From a virus: a stretch of DNA of 31,008 nt. Shown here in pieces: positions 85-19,371 of this stretch; the first letter of the stretch is position 1, and each line of letters begins with the position of its first letter. The DNA is taken from positions 1 to 31,008 of IMG/VR virus record IMGVR_UViG_3300029319_000293; one strand, written 5' to 3'. The notes beneath the pieces are model-generated. The model worked only from the letters and a program-made list of their open reading frames with translations. It had not been told where the DNA came from and searched no databases. Made by a program: the position numbers and the translations under genes.

Positions 85-114
85 TTGAAATAGTATACAT
101 TTTGTAGTTAATAT
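85..114 (+). promoter_or_regulatory. Candidate early promoter
   Basis: A TTGAAA (85-90) and a TAATAT (109-114) separated by 18 nt precede the first gene of the leftward block of small genes. The predicted start near 121 would leave a leader of about 15 nt containing AAGGAG (121-126). Positions 1-84 show no convincing gene. Frame 1 is open from the window edge to a TAG at 61-63 and may be the tail of an upstream gene. The promoter call rests on consensus matching only. Confidence 0.4.
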
Positions 115-4179: not shown

Positions 4180-4708
4180 CAACAAGATCCTTAGCTTCAA
4201 CCTCAAGTAGCTCTTCTCCCATAAGTTGCTTGAGGCGATTCTCTACCTCTGCTCTCGACATCTGATCTATCTTACCGAACCTAACTTCTTTCTTCTCAAC
4301 TACCAGTCCACCAACTTTGAGTAAAGCGTTTTGAGCTGCGATCGCCGCATTAAAAGAACCAGACTTTAAAGCCTCGTCCCGAATATCGTACAAGTCCTGA
4401 ACAGCTCGATCGTGGTTTAATTCATATTTTTTTTTAACTTCCGACATCAGAAAGTTAATCTCTTGTTTCACTTTTTGATTACGCATGAGTTGGTAAGAAG
4501 CCTGGCGTGGATCTTTATACCCTGCAACCCGAGCAGCTTCTGTAAATGACATCCTTGGATTATTAACAGCAGTCCAACAAAATATTTTTTGTCTGCGATT
4601 TAAATCAGAATCATCAAAGAACTCAATTGGTGGGTTTTTTTCGTCTGCGATAGTAGGTTGATACTCAGCTTTAGGTTTTGGGGTTTTAAGTTTGAAACGT
4701 TTGCTCAT
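4136..4708 (-). CDS. Terminase small subunit
   Basis: The 190-residue protein has the layout of Terminase_2/phage TerS proteins. After a Lys/Pro-rich N-terminus comes a helix-turn-helix-like block at residues ~38-88 (RRQKIFCWTAV, FTEAARVAGYK, ASYQLMRNQKVKQEI). A helical oligomerisation segment follows, then an acidic C-terminal tail. The small subunit recognises phage DNA for packaging and recruits the nuclease/ATPase large subunit, which is not present here. Translation is coupled to the 49-codon gene upstream through an ATGA overlap (4705-4708). It lies far from the virion genes at 19-31 kb, so the packaging genes are split in this map or joined across the window ends. Confidence 0.8.
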   Translation of the reverse strand: MSKRFKLKTPKPKAEYQPTIADEKNPPIEFFDDSDLNRRQKIFCWTAVNNPRMSFTEAARVAGYKDPRQASYQLMRNQKVKQEINFLMSEVKKKYELNHDRAVQDLYDIRDEALKSGSFNAAIAAQNALLKVGGLVVEKKEVRFGKIDQMSRAEVENRLKQLMGEELLEVEAKDLVVNPQDVPPDLPEKQ

Positions 4709-4854
4709 CCTTGTCCTCTGTATTTTTTAAAGTCCCGCTTGGTAGTCTTGTTCATGCTTGAGGTACCGACGTTGCGACGCCCAATAGAAGTCTTTTTGCC
4801 TCTTACACCACATACTGGTGTATGGCCCTTAGCATTATTCCATTTAGCTACCAT
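4705..4854 (-). CDS. 49-residue basic protein upstream of terS
   Basis: The ORF encodes a basic, Gly/Lys/Arg-rich peptide beginning MVAKWNNAKGHTPVCGVRGK and ending KKYRGQG. It overlaps the terminase small-subunit start by 4 nt (ATGA), so the two are probably co-translated. No ribosome-binding site precedes the ATG. Instead a TATAAT lies 8 nt upstream, suggesting a leaderless message. No family is recognised. A nucleic-acid-binding role would fit its charge but is a guess. Confidence 0.5.
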   Translation of the reverse strand: MVAKWNNAKGHTPVCGVRGKKTSIGRRNVGTSSMNKTTKRDFKKYRGQG

Positions 4855-4862
4855 TAATGCGA

Positions 4863-4891
4863 ATTATAGAATTACAGATTGTAGAAGTAAA
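4863..4891 (-). promoter_or_regulatory. Proximal promoter for terS pair (leaderless spacing)
   Basis: On the minus strand a TTTACT (4891-4886) and a perfect TATAAT (4868-4863) are separated by 17 nt. Only 8 nt separate the -10 box from the ATG at 4854, so transcription should start at or next to the start codon. An ACAGAT half-site (4874-4879) lies in the spacer. Confidence 0.45.
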
Positions 4892-7887: not shown

Positions 7888-7920
7888 TTGAAATATTAAC
7901 AAACTGCAATATAATGTCAA
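7888..7920. promoter_or_regulatory. Overlapping divergent promoters
   Basis: Plus strand: TTGAAA (7888-7893), 16 nt, TATAAT (7910-7915), driving the exonuclease at 7954. Minus strand: TTGACA (7920-7915), 16 nt, TAATAT (7898-7893), driving the gene at 7885. Each -35 box touches the -10 box of the other promoter, so polymerase should occupy only one at a time. Confidence 0.6.
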
Positions 7921-7953
7921 TTACTAAATGTAAATTAATTTAATGAGGACCTT

Positions 7954-9044: not shown

Positions 9045-9047
9045 AAG

Positions 9048-9065
9048 AGGGGCCAAAGCCCCTCA
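9048..9065. terminator. GC-rich hairpin between convergent operons
   Basis: GAGGGGC and GCCCCTC form a 7-bp stem around CAAA. On the minus strand it is followed by TTTTATTT, so it works best as a second terminator for the minus operon. On the plus strand no T-run follows, but it sits 4 nt after the DUF3310 stop and may still mark the message end. The gap 9066-9232 holds no gene. Confidence 0.55.
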
Positions 9066-9141
9066 GTACCAATGAAATTAAATATGGAGAAAACCTACAA
9101 CTTTCGTATATAAGTTTTCCTAAAATTATACAGAATAGTTT

Positions 9142-9168
9142 TGAAAAAAAAACCCCTCCGAAGAGGGG
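9142..9168 (-). terminator. Rho-independent terminator of the DUF669/Sak4 operon
   Basis: On the minus strand CCCCTC-TTCG-GAGGGG forms a 6-bp stem with a stable TTCG tetraloop, followed by a run of nine T. This is a canonical intrinsic terminator for the operon that ends at 9233. Confidence 0.85.
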
Positions 9169-9232
9169 CCACAGGATATAAATGAAAAATTTAAAATTTT
9201 CACATTTAGATTACATTATGTCTAAAATGCAA

Positions 9233-9694: not shown

Positions 9695-10077
9695 TTCTTT
9701 CTCCCTTTACTAAGTTGTTCAAGAATTAATTTTCTACTCTTGATTTTAAAATTTCTAAATCTTAATTTAGCTATTTCTGAAAATAGATTCGTTAAGTTTA
9801 GATATACAATGTTCAGATCTTTTTCCTGATCCATTTCTAAATCGTCACAATCTCTACACAAAATCTCATAGATATCCATTTGAGCTTGTTTAATTCTTTG
9901 TTCATTCTCAAACAGAATATCTGTATATTCATATGTAGCTTCTTCAAAATCTATGTCTGTAAAACGTTTTCTTTCAGTTTCATCAAACATTTTTAGATCC
10001 GCATATTTTTCTTCCCACATTTGTTCTTCGTCAGGAAAATCAGGATTGACGGGCACAAAATTAGATGGATGCTTCAC
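9691..10077 (-). CDS. Hypothetical protein between Sak4-like ATPase and DUF669
   Basis: The 128-residue product starts at a GTG (10077) behind GGAGG and overlaps the ATPase gene by 17 nt. The N-terminus is acidic (NPDFPDEEQMWEEKYADLKMFDE), the middle helical and the C-terminus basic (RFRNFKIKSRKLILEQLSKGRKK). I do not recognise a domain. Its place between two recombination proteins, coupled to both, suggests it works with them. Confidence 0.72.
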   Translation of the reverse strand: MKHPSNFVPVNPDFPDEEQMWEEKYADLKMFDETERKRFTDIDFEEATYEYTDILFENEQRIKQAQMDIYEILCRDCDDLEMDQEKDLNIVYLNLTNLFSEIAKLRFRNFKIKSRKLILEQLSKGRKK

Positions 10078-10804
10078 TAGCTACCTCCATTTTAGTAGGG
10101 GCCGATTCTACCTGGTTGCTAAAACCAAGTTTGGTAATGACACTCGAAAGATTCGGTTCCTCTAAAGCTTCTAGTTTGCCTGATCTATCTTTACAGACAA
10201 AACCCTCAGCAAGAGTAGTTTGCAACCATCTAGTATGTACTGCTTTACCATCTCCATCTGTTTGTTCCATTACTCTTAAACATAAAACTTCGTCAAAAAA
10301 GTAAGGTATAGATTGTCCTAGCTTAGTACCAATCATTTTTGGTTGGAAAAACCAAACACCATCGTTATTTTCTTTTGCCATCTTGCAAACAAATATAACG
10401 TGCATAGGTAAATCTCTAAACATTCTCATAACATTTGTGCATGTTATCTGAACATTTCCATAAGCTTTACGAGCATCTTTATTTACACTTAATTCGTGGT
10501 CCAAAAGAATCTCTGACATTTCTGATATTGAATCTAGACATACTGTATCATAGTCATGTTCACCCGATTTGAGCTCACCATATATTTGATTCAACTCTTC
10601 ATAAGTTTTTATTTCTATAGCATCAACGTTCTCTTTATCACGAATAGATAGAAGTCCTGCTTCCATGCTTATTACAAGCACTTTGCCAGGAGCCGTTGAG
10701 CATGTATAAGTTTTACCTGCACCAGATTCACCATAAATTAGGATCTTTGCACCTTGTTTATTAACAAGCTGGTCAGGCTTTACTACATTTTTTAATATAC
10801 TCAT
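10061..10804 (-). CDS. RecA-like recombination ATPase, Sak4/AAA_24 type
   Basis: From the ATG at 10804 (behind GGAG with 7-nt spacing) the product is 247 residues. Walker A is GESGAGKT (25-32), Walker B is YDTVCLDSISEM with Asp91, and the order and length match Sak4-like (AAA_24) single-strand annealing ATPases of phages. The family helps pair single strands during phage recombination, usually with an SSB-like partner, here probably the DUF669 protein. An upstream in-frame TTG (10855) overlaps the -35 box and is rejected as the start. It is transcribed divergently from the HTH gene at 10877. Confidence 0.85.
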   Translation of the reverse strand: MSILKNVVKPDQLVNKQGAKILIYGESGAGKTYTCSTAPGKVLVISMEAGLLSIRDKENVDAIEIKTYEELNQIYGELKSGEHDYDTVCLDSISEMSEILLDHELSVNKDARKAYGNVQITCTNVMRMFRDLPMHVIFVCKMAKENNDGVWFFQPKMIGTKLGQSIPYFFDEVLCLRVMEQTDGDGKAVHTRWLQTTLAEGFVCKDRSGKLEALEEPNLSSVITKLGFSNQVESAPTKMEVASEASI

Positions 10805-10819
10805 AAATAATCTCCGTAG

Positions 10820-10855
10820 TTGACAAGATTTTATCAAAGGGTTACGATTTGTCAA
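10820..10855. promoter_or_regulatory. Overlapping divergent promoters with inverted-repeat ends
   Basis: Minus strand: TTGACA (10855-10850), 16 nt, TAAAAT (10833-10828), driving the Sak4 operon. Plus strand: TTGACA (10820-10825), 17 nt, TACGAT (10843-10848), driving the HTH gene. A TATAAA at 10856-10861 is an alternative plus -10. The outer ends TTGACAA and TTGTCAA form a 7-bp inverted repeat. The promoters overlap fully, so use should be mutually exclusive. The HTH protein encoded 22 nt away is the obvious candidate regulator. Confidence 0.6.
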
Positions 10856-10876: not shown

Positions 10877-11200
10877 ATGGAATCAGATGCAGAATGGTTC
10901 GTTAATTATTGTCATCGTTTGACAGAAATAAATAAGGACCGTCTTAAAAAGCTCAAAGAACAAGGGCTTCAACCACAATTCGAACATAAAGATGTCAGAC
11001 CTTATACGTTAGGAGAAATGATTAAACATATTGGTATGGAAGAAGCAGCCAAAAAGTTTGAAGTCTCTTTAGCCTCTATTAGGTCATGGCGATGGGGCTA
11101 TAGACGCCCAAGCGTAGAACAAGCAAAAAAAATAATAATAGCAACCAACGGAAGATTAGACTATGAATCAATTTACGGTTGTCCAAATGAAATAAAATAG
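10877..11200 (+). CDS. Helix-turn-helix DNA-binding protein
   Basis: The 107-residue protein has a basic helical N-terminal half and a clear helix-turn-helix around residues 50-90 (KHIGMEEAAKKFEVSLASIR then SWRWGYRRPSVEQAKKI), resembling Cro/CI-like XRE-type regulators. GGAGG (10866-10870) precedes the ATG. It is the first gene of the plus-strand block, directly beside overlapping divergent promoters, so it probably controls the switch between its own operon and the Sak4/DUF669 operon. An alternative is a replication-initiation accessory protein, since the primase-polymerase gene overlaps its stop. Confidence 0.75.
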   Translation: MESDAEWFVNYCHRLTEINKDRLKKLKEQGLQPQFEHKDVRPYTLGEMIKHIGMEEAAKKFEVSLASIRSWRWGYRRPSVEQAKKIIIATNGRLDYESIYGCPNEIK

Positions 11201-13320
11201 TGTTTTCTATTAACTTCAACGGCAAAGAAAGTGTCTATGAGTTAGCCATGGCATATTACGATGAGGGGCTTGATGTAGTGCCTTTATTGCGTAAATCCAA
11301 AAAGCCACCTGCTTTTTTCAAAGGCTGGGCCCAGTTCAAAGAGCAAAGACCAAAAAGAGAAGAAGTAGAAACTTGGTTTAAAGACAGGGACGATATGACT
11401 GTCGCTTTAGTTTGTGGTCAGTTTATCGTTGTAGATGCAGACACACCTGAAGCCATGAACTGGGTTGAAGAAAACATACCACAAACACCTTACAAAGTTA
11501 GAACTGGTAAAGGTATGCATTACTACTATAACAATCCACAAAATTACACTACATTCGCTACAAAAAGATTAAACGACACACCAATAGAAAGACACATTGA
11601 CATCAGGGGAGACGGTGGTTTAATAATTGCTCCATATAATACACATGCAAACGGACAAGTTTATCAGCCGGTGATTAACCCTAATTGGGATCTGTGGGGT
11701 TTTGAGGATTTACCAGATTTTACCGAAAAAGAATGGATACAAATTACTGGTAACAAAAAAACTAATGGTCAGTCAAATGTCACACCCTTCTCTTTAGATG
11801 GAGTCAATGAGGGCTCTAGGAACGATCAAGCAGCCAGGTTAGCTGGTTATTTAATTTCAAAAAATCTTAACTTAGACTTTGCAAAATTTTTTATGGAGAG
11901 TTGGAATCAACAAAATTCACCACCCTTACCTAAACATGAAATTATTTCCGTAGTAGATAATGTAAAAAAAACACACGACAGAAAAAACCAACAAGCCCCT
12001 TTATTTGTACACACTAAAGAGGATATTGCACCACCTAAAAACCTGTACAATCCACCAGGCGTTCTAAAAAATATGTTTGAGTTCGCTGAAGAAATAGCAC
12101 AAATAAGTCAGCCTGAACTTTCATTAGTAGGAGCTTTGGCTCTAGGTAGTGTTGCTTGTGGCAGAATGTTCAGGACCGATATGAACAATTTTAGCAGTTT
12201 ATATTTTGTTGGTGTCGCTAAATCAGGACAAGGTAAAGAAAATATAAAGACTTTTGTTGAGTCAGTTTTAAACAAAACTAAACACGCTAGATTAGTTGTA
12301 GGCGACGGTTACACATCTTCAGGCGCTGTTCACTCAATTCTTAAATATAGACCTACACAAATTACAGTCATGGACGAATTTGGCAAACGTTTGGAAAACA
12401 TATCTGCACAGCAAAACACTAACAGAGAAGACGGTATTCAAACACTAATGGAAGCTTGGGGCCGTTGTCACGGTACCTTAAGACCTGATAACTATTCACT
12501 TATGAACACACCTGAACAATATGTAGAACAAGCTATGAACCGTATCTGCTACAAACCTGCAATTACCCTTGTAGGTCTTTCTGTGCCAAAGAATTTTTAT
12601 GGGGCTTTGAACTCAGGAAGAGTAGCAGATGGGTTTTTGAACAGATTTATAATCGTAGAATCCAAAGAGCCAAGAAAAGTAAGTGCTTTAAAAAGATACA
12701 AAAAGCCACCGCAACTGATTATAGATTGGGTAAATGCTATTAGAAGACCTAGATCTGATTTTGGTGACATAGCAGAACAAAACTCAGAGGTAAATGTAGA
12801 TCAAACCGTTATCTCTTTTGATGATGATAGTAGACAACTATTAAATGAGTTTGCAGAAGAGGTCGTCAAAAGACAAAACGTTTTAGAAAAAAATAATTTA
12901 GAACCTTTGTTATCTAGGTCTAGAGAAAAAGCTATGCGCTTGTCTTTAATATGTGCTTTGGCTAACGACGTAGGTGCCAAAACAATTAAAGGTGAATATA
13001 CAAAGTGGGCAATAGATTATGTCAGATACTACGATTTGTTATTCATAGAAACTTGTAGAGACAAAGTATCATCCTCTGCTACAGAAGCAAAAATCAAGTC
13101 TGTTCTATCTTATATAAGGTCCCGTGGTGGAGAGGGAATAAGCAAAAGAGAAGTTGATAGACATGAACTATTTAGATCTATGAAGTCATACGAAGTCAAA
13201 GAGATTATAGAAAGATTAAGAAATGCTGGAGAGATCCAAGAAATCGAAGTAAAAATTGGTGGTAAAGGTAGGCCCACAAAAAGATTTGTTGCTGTCGATC
13301 CAACCTACTATGAGGATTAA
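11200..13320 (+). CDS. Primase-polymerase / DUF3987 replication protein
   Basis: The 706-residue protein begins with a GTG overlapping the upstream TAG. Residues ~12-170 form a bifunctional primase/polymerase (Prim-Pol) domain: VVDADTPE with Asp79 and Asp81, TGKGMHYYY with His107, and DIRGDGGLIIAP. Residues ~203-260 look like PriCT_1. The rest is a DUF3987 helicase-like domain with a P-loop variant GVAKSGQGKEN (338-348), where Glu replaces the usual Ser/Thr after Lys346, and a VMDEFG Walker-B-like motif. It probably primes and unwinds phage DNA at the fork. The C-terminal region resembles a winged helix (EGISKREVDR...VKEIIERLRNAGEI). Confidence 0.88.
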   Translation: MFSINFNGKESVYELAMAYYDEGLDVVPLLRKSKKPPAFFKGWAQFKEQRPKREEVETWFKDRDDMTVALVCGQFIVVDADTPEAMNWVEENIPQTPYKVRTGKGMHYYYNNPQNYTTFATKRLNDTPIERHIDIRGDGGLIIAPYNTHANGQVYQPVINPNWDLWGFEDLPDFTEKEWIQITGNKKTNGQSNVTPFSLDGVNEGSRNDQAARLAGYLISKNLNLDFAKFFMESWNQQNSPPLPKHEIISVVDNVKKTHDRKNQQAPLFVHTKEDIAPPKNLYNPPGVLKNMFEFAEEIAQISQPELSLVGALALGSVACGRMFRTDMNNFSSLYFVGVAKSGQGKENIKTFVESVLNKTKHARLVVGDGYTSSGAVHSILKYRPTQITVMDEFGKRLENISAQQNTNREDGIQTLMEAWGRCHGTLRPDNYSLMNTPEQYVEQAMNRICYKPAITLVGLSVPKNFYGALNSGRVADGFLNRFIIVESKEPRKVSALKRYKKPPQLIIDWVNAIRRPRSDFGDIAEQNSEVNVDQTVISFDDDSRQLLNEFAEEVVKRQNVLEKNNLEPLLSRSREKAMRLSLICALANDVGAKTIKGEYTKWAIDYVRYYDLLFIETCRDKVSSSATEAKIKSVLSYIRSRGGEGISKREVDRHELFRSMKSYEVKEIIERLRNAGEIQEIEVKIGGKGRPTKRFVAVDPTYYED

Positions 13321-14613: not shown

Positions 14614-15082
14614 CGATTATTATTTAAGTAAATACAAACGTATGGGGTGCGCTTGGTTTTTGATCCCGTGCTTAGCGTTCCCCCTCTTTGCTGACGAAAT
14701 AAAGTTTAAATTTAAATCGCCCTCATTTAACGGTGAAGGTACATCAGCACACTATCTAACGATAGAAAATCAAGAATTTAACAGAAAGGAAGCATTAGAA
14801 GCAGAAATTAAAGCTTTACAAGATGAACTGCAAAGAGATGCTGATAACACAACCTTAGCCAGGTTCCTTAGAAACTTTGAATCAAGAGTTTATGCACAAC
14901 TATCTAGACAGTTAGTTGATCAGTTGTTTGGTGAAAACCCAGCAAGTGAAGGATCTTTTACTTTGTTTGATAATCTGATAACTTGGACGACAGACGGTAT
15001 AAATATTACAATGACTATATTTAATGAAACTACTGGCGAAACAACTACTATCACTATCCCTATTGGGGACTTTGGTTTCTAG
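14594..15082 (+). CDS. csgF: CsgF-like curli assembly factor
   Basis: The 162-residue product (147 if started at the in-frame ATG 14642) has a hydrophobic signal segment AWFLIPCLAFPLFA, with likely cleavage before DEIKFKF. The mature start IKFKFKSPSFNGEG matches the CsgF N-terminus, the part that plugs into the CsgG pore in E. coli curli (FQFRNPNFGG). A helical middle (LARFLRNFESRVYAQLSRQL) and a C-terminal Thr-rich beta region (TWTTDGINITMTIFNETTGE, ending PIGDFGF) also fit the family. CsgF couples secretion to nucleation at the cell surface. The csgG-like gene begins within its last 59 nt in another frame. Confidence 0.8.
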   Translation: MTKEKIDDYYLSKYKRMGCAWFLIPCLAFPLFADEIKFKFKSPSFNGEGTSAHYLTIENQEFNRKEALEAEIKALQDELQRDADNTTLARFLRNFESRVYAQLSRQLVDQLFGENPASEGSFTLFDNLITWTTDGINITMTIFNETTGETTTITIPIGDFGF

Positions 15083-15872
15083 TTGTGCTTCGCATGTCGA
15101 AAGAATATCTCCCTGCTTAACAAACCCACAAGAAGATTATAAAGATGTTGTTACCATAATTGGAGAAGCACAATGTTTTTCAAAAAATGCCTTTATAAAT
15201 CAACCAGTAACTGCAGCTATAAAAAAAATACCACCAGCAATCCAGCAACCAGTTGTAGCCGTATACAGATTCGGTGATGCGACGGGCCAAAGAAAATCGG
15301 TAGATGGTTATGCAAATTTTTCTACAGCACTTACCCAAGCACCTGAGACTTATGTTATCAGGGCCTTAAAACAATCAAAATTTTTCAGGGTAGTTGAGCG
15401 TGTTGGTATAGATCATCTAACAAGAGAACGACAAATAATAAGATCAACAAGAGAAAAGTTTGATGAAGATAATCAACAAATGCCTTTGCTTTTTGCAGGG
15501 CTGATAGTAGAGGGTGCAATTGTAGATTACAACACCAACCTGTTGACTGGCGGTATAGGGGCAAGATATTTAGGAATAGGTAGTTCTAAACAATATCGTG
15601 AAGATACCGTTGTTGTCTCAATTAGAATAGTTTCTGTTAGTACAGGTGAAATATTATTAGAAAACCTCACTACTAAGACAATATTATCGGTTGGCTTATC
15701 TAATGATTTTTTTCGATATATTGCAGAGGGTACAAAGCTGGTAGAGTTCGAAACTGGTAATGCTATGAATGAAAGTAAATCTATTGCGTTGCAAGCTGCT
15801 ATAGAAACTGGTATCGTAGATATTATAAACCAAGGCAATATCAGAGGTTATTGGCGGTTTATAGGAGAGTAA
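15024..15872 (+). CDS. csgG: CsgG-like curli secretion channel lipoprotein
   Basis: The 282-residue protein starts with a lipoprotein signal (KQLLSLSLLGTLVSSC) and a lipobox placing Cys21 as the lipidated residue. The body matches CsgG closely: VVAVYRFGDATGQRK, YANFSTALTQAPETYVIRAL, FFRVVERVGIDHLTRERQII, EGAIVDYNTNLLTGGIGARY, SVSTGEILLENLTTKTILS and ALQAAIETGIV. In E. coli CsgG is a nonameric outer-membrane export channel whose constriction is lined by Tyr51, Asn55 and Phe56. Here Asn98 and Phe99 are kept, while the Tyr position reads Asp94. The start lies inside the csgF-like gene with no ribosome-binding site, but the signal peptide confirms it. Length is that of a complete CsgG. Confidence 0.92.
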   Translation: MKLLAKQLLSLSLLGTLVSSCASHVERISPCLTNPQEDYKDVVTIIGEAQCFSKNAFINQPVTAAIKKIPPAIQQPVVAVYRFGDATGQRKSVDGYANFSTALTQAPETYVIRALKQSKFFRVVERVGIDHLTRERQIIRSTREKFDEDNQQMPLLFAGLIVEGAIVDYNTNLLTGGIGARYLGIGSSKQYREDTVVVSIRIVSVSTGEILLENLTTKTILSVGLSNDFFRYIAEGTKLVEFETGNAMNESKSIALQAAIETGIVDIINQGNIRGYWRFIGE

Positions 15873-15873
15873 A

Positions 15874-16590
15874 GTGAGAATATTTTTATTATTTTTAGCG
15901 TTGAACGCTTTTGCAGACAATGAGATATTCGTTGATCAAAGCGGAAGTAACGCAGCAATTAATCTTGAACAATTAGGTTCGTCAAACCTTATTGGTGGTA
16001 CTTCAGCCGTTTCAGGCACTATGACAGCTCTAGATTTAGACGGCATAAATATGACATTAGAAATAAACCAAATAGGAGCTAGTAACATTTTTAGATCAGA
16101 TGCTTTTGATTCAGATTACATTTCAGCCCTGTTTGACTTTCAAGGCGACTCTAATGTTATGGATATTTTAGTAAACAGCGGTGGCGCTTATACAGCAGAT
16201 TATGCTGACTTTAATATACAGGTTACTGGTGGAAGTAATACTTTTGATATAGAAGTGGCTGAAAATTCTAATGCAGACTATTTAGACTTGGATTGGATAA
16301 TAGATGGTGACAATAATGAGTTTGAATTTGATATTGATTATGAAAATGCAACATCATATATCGATATATTCGGTGACAGTAACGCACTAACATTTGAGGG
16401 AAGCGGTTATGCAGGCACAACATCCAGCGATTCAGGCTACTTCTATCTTGATTTAACGGGCGACAGTAATACTTACACAATAACTCAAGCTTCAACTTTA
16501 GCTAGAGATTATTTAAAAATAACATCAAATGCGTCTAATTCTGTGGTCTGTATTGTTCAAAGCGACGGTTCTAGCACAACTTCATGCTGA
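15874..16590 (+). CDS. Curlin-like repeat protein, putative export substrate
   Basis: The 238-residue protein starts at a GTG behind AGGAG, with a signal peptide FLLFLALNAFA cleaved before DNEIF. It carries about eight Gly-x-x-Asn-type turns: QSGSN (22), QLGSSN (33), QIGASN (66), QGDSN (90), TGGSN (118), DGDNN (144), FGDSN (166) and TGDSN (195). The early ones fit the curlin Q-x-G-x-x-N motif, and all resemble beta-arch repeats of amyloid or beta-solenoid fibres. It is very acidic, with two C-terminal Cys (226, 238). Placed directly after CsgF/CsgG-like genes, it is the likely secreted subunit. Spacing is irregular compared with E. coli CsgA, so it may be a nucleator or a diverged subunit. 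Confidence 0.72.
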   Translation: MRIFLLFLALNAFADNEIFVDQSGSNAAINLEQLGSSNLIGGTSAVSGTMTALDLDGINMTLEINQIGASNIFRSDAFDSDYISALFDFQGDSNVMDILVNSGGAYTADYADFNIQVTGGSNTFDIEVAENSNADYLDLDWIIDGDNNEFEFDIDYENATSYIDIFGDSNALTFEGSGYAGTTSSDSGYFYLDLTGDSNTYTITQASTLARDYLKITSNASNSVVCIVQSDGSSTTSC

Positions 16591-17623
16591 ACCAATAGGC
16601 GATATTACAAATCTTCGTGGTTATGGTCAGGTCTTAAGGGACCTGCCCTACGAAGCTATACTAGATTTCGACATCAATTCATATGATGATGTACAAACTC
16701 GTAAGGGCCGTATAGAAATAACTTTCGTTGACGATTCTACAGTAAGACTTACTGAGCACTCTAATTTAATTATTGACGAATACATTTACGATCCAAACCC
16801 AACCAAAGGTAAAATGGCTCTAAGTTTTGCTAGTGGCACCATCAGATTTGTAAGTGGCAGTATCAACAAATTAGACAAAGCCAATATAACGCTAAAAACA
16901 CCTACAGCGGATATAGCAGTTAGAGGAACCGATTTTACTTGTACAGTAGATGAAACAGGAAGGAGTTTAATAATTTTATTACCAGATGAATTTGGTGATG
17001 CTAGTGGTGAAATTATTGTATCAACAGCAGCTGGTCAAGTTGTCTTAAATAAACCGTACCAAGCAACAACTACAACTGTATATGAACAGATACCCAGCAA
17101 TCCTGTAACCTTAGACATATCTTTAGATCTAATAGACAACTATCTGATTGTCTCACCACCCAAAGAACGAGTTGTTGTCTCTGAAGAAGAAGTTTCGGAG
17201 CAACAAGATTATTTAGATTTTACGGATCTAGATATTGATTACTTAGATGAAGATCTGTTGGTTGAAGAAGATTTAAGTTTTGATGAGTTGGATATAGATT
17301 ATTTGAACACTAATTTCTTCGAAGATCTGTTAGACGCAATATATCTATTAGAAGAAGAACAAGAACAGGATGTTCTAGGTAGTGTTATAGACGGAGTAGA
17401 TATTGTCGGCACACAAATAGGACAAGATCCTGATACCCAAATTACAACATTTATAAGTGGTGAGCAGATAAACTTCTTAAGAAACGTGACAAACTCTTTG
17501 CAATTAGCATTAAACTCTGACGAATCTTACACTATCTTAATAATACAAGACGGTATCACAAACTCTATTAAAGTTAATGGTGGTAATTCGAGCAACATCA
17601 TAATCAAACAGGAACAGGGATGA
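16529..17623 (+). CDS. FecR-domain periplasmic/secreted protein
   Basis: The 364-residue protein has a signal peptide (MRLILWSVLFKATVLAQLHA, cleavage before EPIGD). Its FecR domain runs from about 45 to 150: KGRIEITFVDDSTVRLTEHS, ALSFASGTIRFVSGSI and TPTADIAVRGTDFT. Residues ~215-280 are very acidic with two LDIDYL repeats. The last ~30 residues (IIQDGITNSIKVNGGNSSN, ending IKQEQG) resemble one curlin-like repeat with Q340-x-G342-x-x-N345. FecR domains relay periplasmic signals, and FecR proteins are often encoded beside CHASE2 sensors, as here. It starts within the final 62 nt of the curlin-like gene and overlaps the cyclase gene by 4 nt. Confidence 0.82.
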   Translation: MRLILWSVLFKATVLAQLHAEPIGDITNLRGYGQVLRDLPYEAILDFDINSYDDVQTRKGRIEITFVDDSTVRLTEHSNLIIDEYIYDPNPTKGKMALSFASGTIRFVSGSINKLDKANITLKTPTADIAVRGTDFTCTVDETGRSLIILLPDEFGDASGEIIVSTAAGQVVLNKPYQATTTTVYEQIPSNPVTLDISLDLIDNYLIVSPPKERVVVSEEEVSEQQDYLDFTDLDIDYLDEDLLVEEDLSFDELDIDYLNTNFFEDLLDAIYLLEEEQEQDVLGSVIDGVDIVGTQIGQDPDTQITTFISGEQINFLRNVTNSLQLALNSDESYTILIIQDGITNSIKVNGGNSSNIIIKQEQG

Positions 17624-19371
17624 AGAAAGGATTACTTCTTATATTTATGCTAGCTCTGCCTTTAGCCTTTCAAGTGCCACCATTAGAAGTAATGAAACTT
17701 AAAACATTTGATTATTTAGTGCCCGATCAAGAACCAAGTGGGTTTTTCACTATACTTAATATAAGTGAGGATGATGTACAAGAGGAGGGAGGTTGGCCCT
17801 TACCTAGATCAAGATTAGCAGAAATAAACCAACAACTTATAAACAAGGGTGCCCTTGGTGTAGGTTGGGTGTTATCCTTTATAGATAAAGACCGGTTCGG
17901 TGGTGATGAAAAGTTAGCTGTTTCGTTCAATCAGTTCCCCATTGTAGTCGCCACCTTCCAGTCTCAAAACGGCATTTATCCTAAGCCAACTGGAACCGTC
18001 ATCTTGGGACCTGATGTGTCTGGCTATCCATTAGATGGTTACATACCAAATATTGATTTGATTGCTAATAATGCTTTTGAAGGTATGGTATCAGCACCAG
18101 TAGATATAGATAATTTAGTAAGAAGAGTACCTTTGCTATATCAAATACCTGGGGGTTGGGTGCCTAGTTTCGGCACACAAGTCTTAAAGGTGCTAGCAGG
18201 TGCAGATACATATGTTATAAAAACAAACGAGTTTGGTATTGAGCAAATAAGAGTCAAAGGTATACCTGAAATACCTACAGACAAGCTAGGCCGTAAATGG
18301 ATAAGTTGGGTAGATACACCTACGACAACTTTAGATGAAATGGATGTGCAAAATAAATTTGTTTTTGTAGGTGTAACCGCTAAAGGGATTTTACCAACTT
18401 TAGCAACACCCAAAGATTTATTAATGCCACATGAGATCCAAGCTGCTTTAGCAGAGTCAATCCTGATAGAAAACAGTCCTATGATACCTGATTGGCATTT
18501 AGGTGCAGAATTGTTAATTTTAATAATTTTTTGCTTTCTTATTTGGCTTCTAACGCAATCTTTTGGAATTACAGGTGGTTTAGTATCATTTTCTACCATC
18601 TTTTTGTCTACGGCTGTAATAGGCACCCAGATTGTAAAAAGAGGTATTTTATTGGATTTTACCTACACTTTAGTAGCAGAATTTGTGACTGCAGCTACAT
18701 CTTTTTATTTGAACTTCAGAAAACAATATAAATTACGTCAAGAAATCAAAAAACAATTCGAGCATTATTTAGATCCTGCCCAAGTTAAAAGATTACAGGA
18801 TAATCCCAACCTACTAAAGTTAGGTGGTGAAAAAAGATATTGTACATATCTGTTTACAGATGTGAGAGGTTTTACTGCCTTGTCTGAAAAACTAGAACCG
18901 CAAGAGGTGACGGCTATCATGAATCAAGCTTTGACAATACAAGCTGATGCGGTCCAAAAATATGGAGGTATGGTCGATAAGTATATAGGTGATGCGATGA
19001 TGGCAATATTTAATGCACCATTAGATTTACATAATCACGAAGAAAGAGCTATACAAGCAGCGCTTCAAATAAGAGACGACATGCAAGCAGCAGGGTTAGA
19101 TATTGCAATTGGTATTGGTTTAAATTCAGGGCCGTCAGTTGTAGGTAATTTAGGTAGTTCTTCACGCTTCGATTATACAGCTATAGGTGATGCTGTAAAT
19201 ACTGCAGCACGATTAGAATCAGCGACTAAAGAAGCTGGTGTAGATCTATTGATTGGTGAATCTACTGCTAAGGCTCTAATCGGCACACCAACAAAAAAAC
19301 CGCTACGCAGACTCGACAGTATAAATGTTAAAGGCAAAAGTAAAAAACTGGGTATTTATACTATGGACTAA
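17620..19371 (+). CDS. CHASE2-domain class III adenylate cyclase
   Basis: The 583-residue protein has an N-terminal membrane anchor (~4-17), an extracytoplasmic CHASE2 sensor (~20-285), three membrane helices (~293-365), and a cytoplasmic class III cyclase domain (~400-575). Catalytic residues are intact: metal ligands Asp414 (FTDVRGFT) and Asp458 (DKYIGD), substrate-selecting Lys454 and Thr520 (DYTAIGD), and transition-state Asn527 and Arg531 (VNTAARLE). The Lys/Thr pair is typical of bacterial adenylate rather than guanylate cyclases. It should make cAMP in the host cytoplasm in response to a periplasmic cue, perhaps through the FecR protein upstream. Full-length sensor cyclases are very unusual in phages. 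It converges with the minus virion genes, overlapping by 11 nt. Confidence 0.9.
   Translation: MKKGLLLIFMLALPLAFQVPPLEVMKLKTFDYLVPDQEPSGFFTILNISEDDVQEEGGWPLPRSRLAEINQQLINKGALGVGWVLSFIDKDRFGGDEKLAVSFNQFPIVVATFQSQNGIYPKPTGTVILGPDVSGYPLDGYIPNIDLIANNAFEGMVSAPVDIDNLVRRVPLLYQIPGGWVPSFGTQVLKVLAGADTYVIKTNEFGIEQIRVKGIPEIPTDKLGRKWISWVDTPTTTLDEMDVQNKFVFVGVTAKGILPTLATPKDLLMPHEIQAALAESILIENSPMIPDWHLGAELLILIIFCFLIWLLTQSFGITGGLVSFSTIFLSTAVIGTQIVKRGILLDFTYTLVAEFVTAATSFYLNFRKQYKLRQEIKKQFEHYLDPAQVKRLQDNPNLLKLGGEKRYCTYLFTDVRGFTALSEKLEPQEVTAIMNQALTIQADAVQKYGGMVDKYIGDAMMAIFNAPLDLHNHEERAIQAALQIRDDMQAAGLDIAIGIGLNSGPSVVGNLGSSSRFDYTAIGDAVNTAARLESATKEAGVDLLIGESTAKALIGTPTKKPLRRLDSINVKGKSKKLGIYTMD

Follow-up and report, generated by a model that had tools for sequence, protein, structure and literature searches.

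In the 31,008-nt stretch of viral DNA analysed here (the window), a 72-bp gap separates sak4 (ATG at 10804, minus strand) from a gene encoding a helix-turn-helix (HTH) protein (ATG at 10877, plus strand). The 36 bp at 10820-10855 within this gap (TTGACAAGATTTTATCAAAGGGTTACGATTTGTCAA) raise the question of whether they form a switch, at which the HTH protein binds and chooses between two operons while indirectly timing a downstream curli cassette, as proposed in the first-pass annotation, or whether the protein would act there in another way, or not at all.

We found that this segment contains two sigma70-type promoters lying back to back (Table 1). Specifically, the rightward promoter consists of a -35 box TTGACA (10820-10825), a 17-nt spacer and a -10 box TACGAT (10843-10848), with a score of 10/12, and the leftward promoter consists of TTGACA (10855-10850), a 16-nt spacer and a TG-extended -10 box TAAAAT (10833-10828), with a score of 11/12. 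The predicted leaders are about 22 nt (plus) and 17 nt (minus) long and contain the ribosome sites GGAGG and GGAGA, respectively, so that opposite-strand -35/-10 sets, spacers of 16-18 nt, overlap, divergent genes and ribosome sites, as are expected of divergent sigma70 promoters, are all present. When the 72-bp gap was shuffled, none of 400 shuffles equalled both scores. In addition, strong pairs, defined as at least 10/12 on each strand with an overlap of at least 20 bp, are found twice in the window, compared with a mean of 0.075 and a maximum of 1 in 40 dinucleotide shuffles. The other pair, at 7888-7920 (TTGAAA-N16-TATAAT, plus; TTGACA-N16-TAATAT, minus), is likewise divergent and overlapping, and the two pairs are the promoters of the early region's two divergent intergenic gaps. 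The earlier description of this locus was thus borne out as to the promoter pair, which scores far above shuffles, its likeness to 7888-7920, and the 7-bp inverted ends (TTGACAA, 10820-10826; TTGTCAA, 10849-10855), the second of which lies 22 nt from the HTH start codon.

Table 1. Features of the control region, the candidate operators and the flanking genes in the window
Feature	Position	Strand	Remarks
sigma70-type promoter, HTH-primase operon	10820..10848	+	predicted start ~10855
sigma70-type promoter, sak4/DUF669 operon	10828..10855	-	overlaps + promoter; predicted start ~10821
Candidate operator site A	10842..10854	.	TTACGATTTGTCA; weakened TTAC-N5-GTAA copy, 1 mismatch
Candidate operator site B	7921..7933	.	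TTACTAAATGTAA; adjoins 7888-7920 promoter pair
Candidate operator site C	4872..4884	.	TTACAGATTGTAG; PWM rank 1; conserved in L020, L004, L008, L017
Candidate operator site D	95..107	.	ATACATTTTGTAG; held-out PWM rank 3 of ~31,000 positions
HTH protein, 107 aa, best read as Cro/YdaS-like	10877..11200	+	profiles, predicted structure, homologues
Sak4-like ssDNA annealing ATPase	10061..10804	-	phrog_124, E 6e-52; first gene of divergent operon
Primase/polymerase-helicase	11200..13320	+	directly 3' of HTH gene
Curli/cyclase cassette	15024-19371		CsgG, repeat-rich secreted protein, FecR-domain protein, CHASE2 cyclase

Homologues of the HTH protein were found in 18 viral contigs at 60-100% identity, in L045 at 48% and in L051-L066 at 41-50%. 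Inspection of the loci of L045, L051, L055, L061 and the closer group showed sak4 as the divergently transcribed neighbour in each, and a primase gene follows the HTH gene wherever the inspected locus extends far enough. All nine distinct variants of the site A region, taken from HTH homologues 41-100% identical, retain a plus promoter of 8-10/12 and a minus promoter of 9-11/12, with 0 to 14 shuffles per 400 being as good, depending on the variant. In L009 and L051, the best-scoring plus site overlaps the minus promoter by only 10-13 bp, and the plus site in register with that of the window has a sub-consensus -10 box. From this comparison we conclude that the two predicted divergent promoters at 10820-10855 are real and conserved in the relatives.

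A 13-bp palindrome, TTAC-N5-GTAA, is probably a better operator candidate than the 7-bp repeat and is the predicted target of the HTH protein; its core, TAC-N5-GTA, emerged by inspection from comparing site A and site B variants before any testing, and the statistics on it are therefore partly post hoc. Candidate sites were located, by sequence only, at further early promoters of the window (95, 4872 and 7921) and of its relatives. Site B is the sole perfect TTAC-N5-GTAA in the window, and TAC-N5-GT is present in all aligned site B variants. Site C lies within the spacer of a minus-strand promoter (TTTACT-N17-TATAAT, 4891-4863) that precedes a small ORF and terS, the gene for the small subunit of terminase, and site D lies in the promoter region of the left plus-strand operon (TTGAAA-N18-TAATAT, 85-114). 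One-mismatch matches in the window comprise site A and 17 others, a total not above chance. Contigs of relatives often contain one or two perfect copies, which lie at site A in the L009/L012 clade and L045.

To limit circularity, a symmetric position weight matrix (PWM) was trained on the relatives' sites B and C alone; it ranked 4872 and 7921 highest in the window, followed by 95, a site outside the training set. Seven held-out zones had ranks of 3, 3, 3, 1, 1, 12 and 1, that is, within the top three in six of the seven genomes and 12th in L061, with the zones of G012, G014 and L010 belonging to one clade and not being independent; column-permuted motifs reached the held-out ranks in 3 of 2000 trials. 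The position of site A ranked first to third genome-wide in L010, L045, G012 and G014, and a matrix built from sites B, C and D of the window placed it first or second genome-wide in G012, G014, G009, L010 and L045, its conservation being owed partly to the promoter boxes that it overlaps. The site in L051 is weak. In G006, five of the six best matches are promoter-region sites, namely C, B and three copies in the left arm (2911, 3169 and 3186), the region corresponding to that of site D in the window. These three palindromes lie in an additional divergent gap (2886-3214 of L067, the contig of G006), and two of them are 17 bp apart (TTACCTATTGTAA and TTACTATGTGTAG).

Other palindromes were tried as operators and rejected. 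The sequence at 9211-9223 (TTACATTATGTCT) is weak (rank 21 with the relatives' PWM) and absent from the relatives aligned there, and an inner palindrome centred at 10838, TA(T/A/G)C-N5-G(T/A)TA, is symmetric in L004 and L045 only, its invariant bases being those of the two promoters' TG-extended -10 boxes.

The palindrome at the HTH gene's own promoter is perfect in L009/L012 and L045 and weak in the window, where site A has a GTCA arm and ranks only 71st by the PWM. This arm is also the reverse complement of part of the consensus -35 box, and the closest relatives (L004, L007 and L020) have the same weak form, so that 10820-10855 could contain promoters only, with the HTH protein acting at 95, 4872 and 7921 and not at its own promoter. 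We consider this unlikely, because the C at position 3 of the plus-strand -10 box (TAC) is kept in all variants though sub-consensus, the 5-nt distance to GT is constant across all variants, and exact TAC-N5-GTAA sequences are present in the orthologous gaps of L009/L012, L045 and L053.

The HTH protein matched the HTH_3 profile weakly (E 6e-4, below the curated cut-off, its protein family scores all lying under those of Pfam) and the P22_Cro profile at E 0.076, also below cut-off. Its AlphaFold model, based on eight aligned sequences, has a pLDDT of 78, with about 90 in the HTH, and shows a lambda-repressor-like HTH fold, with YdaS (8co2), a Xylella prophage Cro, N15 Cro and P22 c2 as the closest Foldseek matches, at E-values of only about 0.02. 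A sequence-only search of the PDB gave nothing informative, and no relative was found in the bacterial genomes searched. The predicted structure makes a Cro/YdaS-like regulator the best interpretation of the protein. Its nearest named homologue (74 aa, 41% identity over 54 aa) is in Pseudomonas phage PARCL1pr, which has an integrase, and occupies the cro position, facing an S24-domain repressor. This homologue has a weak CII-like profile match (phrog_101), and neither promoter at site B is perfect, as might be expected if the HTH protein activated one promoter in the manner of CII instead of repressing both. Such a role seems improbable, however, since the repressor profiles, themselves matched weakly, score better (phrog_35 above the CII-like profile), and the sites overlap -10/-35 boxes or a spacer, where a bound protein normally excludes polymerase.

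Assignment of the candidate operator to the HTH protein comes mainly from the palindrome following the protein family across hosts. In PARCL1pr, the cro/repressor gap contains three CAC-N5-GTG palindromes (CACTAATAGTG, CACTATCTGTG and CACTAATTGTG), and CACTANNNGTG occurs at five places in the 39.6-kb genome, three of them within this gap. Upstream of the homologue gene, CAC-N5-GTG is present twice in each of the Vibrio phages VPHZ6 and 10N.237.312.C11_PE002A and once in each of three Aeromonas phages; no such palindrome was found upstream of the homologue in Ahp2. Among the six temperate-phage records with sites (Pseudomonas, Vibrio and Aeromonas), 10 of 21 YAC-N5-GTR sites lie upstream of the homologue gene, a portion that makes up only about 4% of the total sequence (binomial P ~5e-9). 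As read from these genomes, a 5-nt-centred (C/T)AC...GT(G/A) palindrome goes with the HTH protein family across hosts and is probably the sequence that this Cro subfamily recognises; in sequenced phages of Vibrio, Aeromonas and Pseudomonas, its members have no annotation beyond hypothetical protein. That TTAC-N5-GTAA is bound by a host regulator instead of the HTH protein of the phage is hardly probable, given that YAC-N5-GTR precedes homologous HTH genes in phages of all three of these hosts.

The best structural match, YdaS of prophage CP-933P in E. coli O157:H7, has been proven to be an analogue of Cro and represses both divergent promoters of its gap (PMC8630535). Like the HTH protein, YdaS is small and encoded beside a short divergent-promoter gap; it represses both promoters by binding palindromes that overlap them, the sites here being candidates by sequence alone, and its published repeat half-site, GTTTAGTAA, includes GTAA (PMC8630535). 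YdaS differs in that its palindromes are 18 bp long, against 13 bp with N5 here, and in that it is part of a lysogeny switch, where its competitor is PaaR2, an analogue of CI, whereas the divergent gene here is sak4 and not a CI-type repressor. We found no Peptidase_S24 domain in the window or seven relatives and no tyrosine integrase, absences that are provisional because all of these are IMG/VR fragments and possibly incomplete. The Pseudomonas, Vibrio and Aeromonas phage homologues share the homologous HTH domain and the 5-nt-centred architecture, with between one and three sites next to their genes, but have C (CAC) as the outer base instead of T (TAC), and those of PARCL1pr and VPHZ6 are encoded opposite a repressor of the S24/LexA type, unlike here. 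Lambda and P22 Cro, acting at OL/OR operators, are also small autoregulators at several early promoters, as is proposed here; the window differs in having no cI partner and a single weak site at the gene's own promoter. Our search of the literature on Cro in virulent phages and on this phage group turned up no description.

The reading that we favour, and hold to be reasonably probable, is that the two promoters are mutually exclusive and that the HTH protein acts as a repressor of the Cro/YdaS type on TTAC-N5-GTAA at the main early promoters. Early in infection, host RNA polymerase would use both promoters of 10820-10855, one at a time because they overlap, transcribing the sak4 recombination operon to the left and the HTH-primase operon to the right. 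A dimer of the HTH protein would recognise the palindrome strongly at 95, 4872 and 7921 and more weakly at 10842-10854, so that the accumulating protein would fill the strong sites first and the weak one at a higher level; at site A, it would then shut both divergent promoters, resulting in delayed autoregulation and early-gene shut-off. We infer the repression, its order and its timing from the positions of the sites and the analogy with YdaS. Site A covers the plus-strand -10 and the minus-strand -35 boxes, and a bound dimer should therefore block both promoters, which argues against the earlier proposal that the HTH protein chooses between the operons; any such choice would come from RNA polymerase occupancy. 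For this uncultured phage group, the outcome is an explicit, predicted early-gene circuit, in which a single regulator would act through one 13-bp operator on at least four promoter regions.

It had also been suggested that the HTH protein binds the TTGACAA/TTGTCAA repeat, in which case occupancy of the repeat would select one operon. A perfect 7-bp repeat does adjoin the HTH gene, but it is almost entirely the two -35 hexamers and would arise automatically from two good promoters in such a geometry, and the 36-bp pattern was found nowhere else in the window. Moreover, the left TTGACA is retained throughout the group of 48-100% identity, whereas the right arm varies, from TTGACA in the window group to TTTACA in L009/L012 and TTTACT in L045, where the HTH gene and promoters are retained, the altered arm is still usable as a -35 box, and TTAC-N5-GTAA becomes perfect. 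In these alignments the drift of the right arm is that of a -35 box and not of a protein's perfect dyad, and since the arm changes in step with the -35 box, the repeat is explained by the promoters. A role for the repeat as operator is thus very improbable, although an HTH regulator probably does act in the gap.

The operon to the right of the gap has no strong predicted terminator through the CsgG, FecR-domain and CHASE2-cyclase genes to 19371, and the curli cassette may simply be transcribed by read-through. The CHASE2 cyclase is 31-33% identical to cyclases of the myophages HTVC008M and Melnitz, which have been reported to carry csgG and csgF (PMC9004378). In L061, a structural gene comes immediately after the sak4|HTH-primase-nuclease block, and the curli cassette is missing. 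As lineage members lacking the cassette keep the arrangement, the control region is independent of its presence and was not built to time curli, contrary to the purpose first suggested for it. More tentatively, and with somewhat less than even confidence, we propose that in this phage lineage, with neither CI nor a tyrosine integrase detectable, a Cro-type protein alone may serve as genome-wide early regulator, with operators at all early promoters, and that the curli/cyclase cassette, where acquired, may be transcribed from a Cro-controlled unit.

Some minor features of the window were also observed. In the gap between convergent operons at 9047-9170, two intrinsic terminators on the minus strand are separated by about 100 nt, within which lies a conserved GTATAAT; these features are partly conserved in L008, L004 and L020. 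A possible phage RNA of about 70 nt (~9118-9047, minus strand) contains UUUUCUCCAU, an anti-ribosome-site sequence. An Rfam search gave no match, and duplex energies over 40 starts revealed no specific target; pairing with the HTH ribosome site was rejected, the HTH start ranking only 8th of the 40. Also between convergent operons, the sequence at 9211-9223 adjoins a predicted promoter pair (9196-9228). The -10 box on the minus strand is so close to the ATG at site B (7885) and at site C (~4854) that the predicted start coincides with the ATG or falls only a few bases away, and these messages are possibly leaderless, as is known for those of lambda cI and paaR2. Between the site C promoter and terS, and immediately preceding the latter, is a short basic ORF of some 50 codons (~4700-4854, minus strand), which is conserved in L020, L004, L008 and L017.
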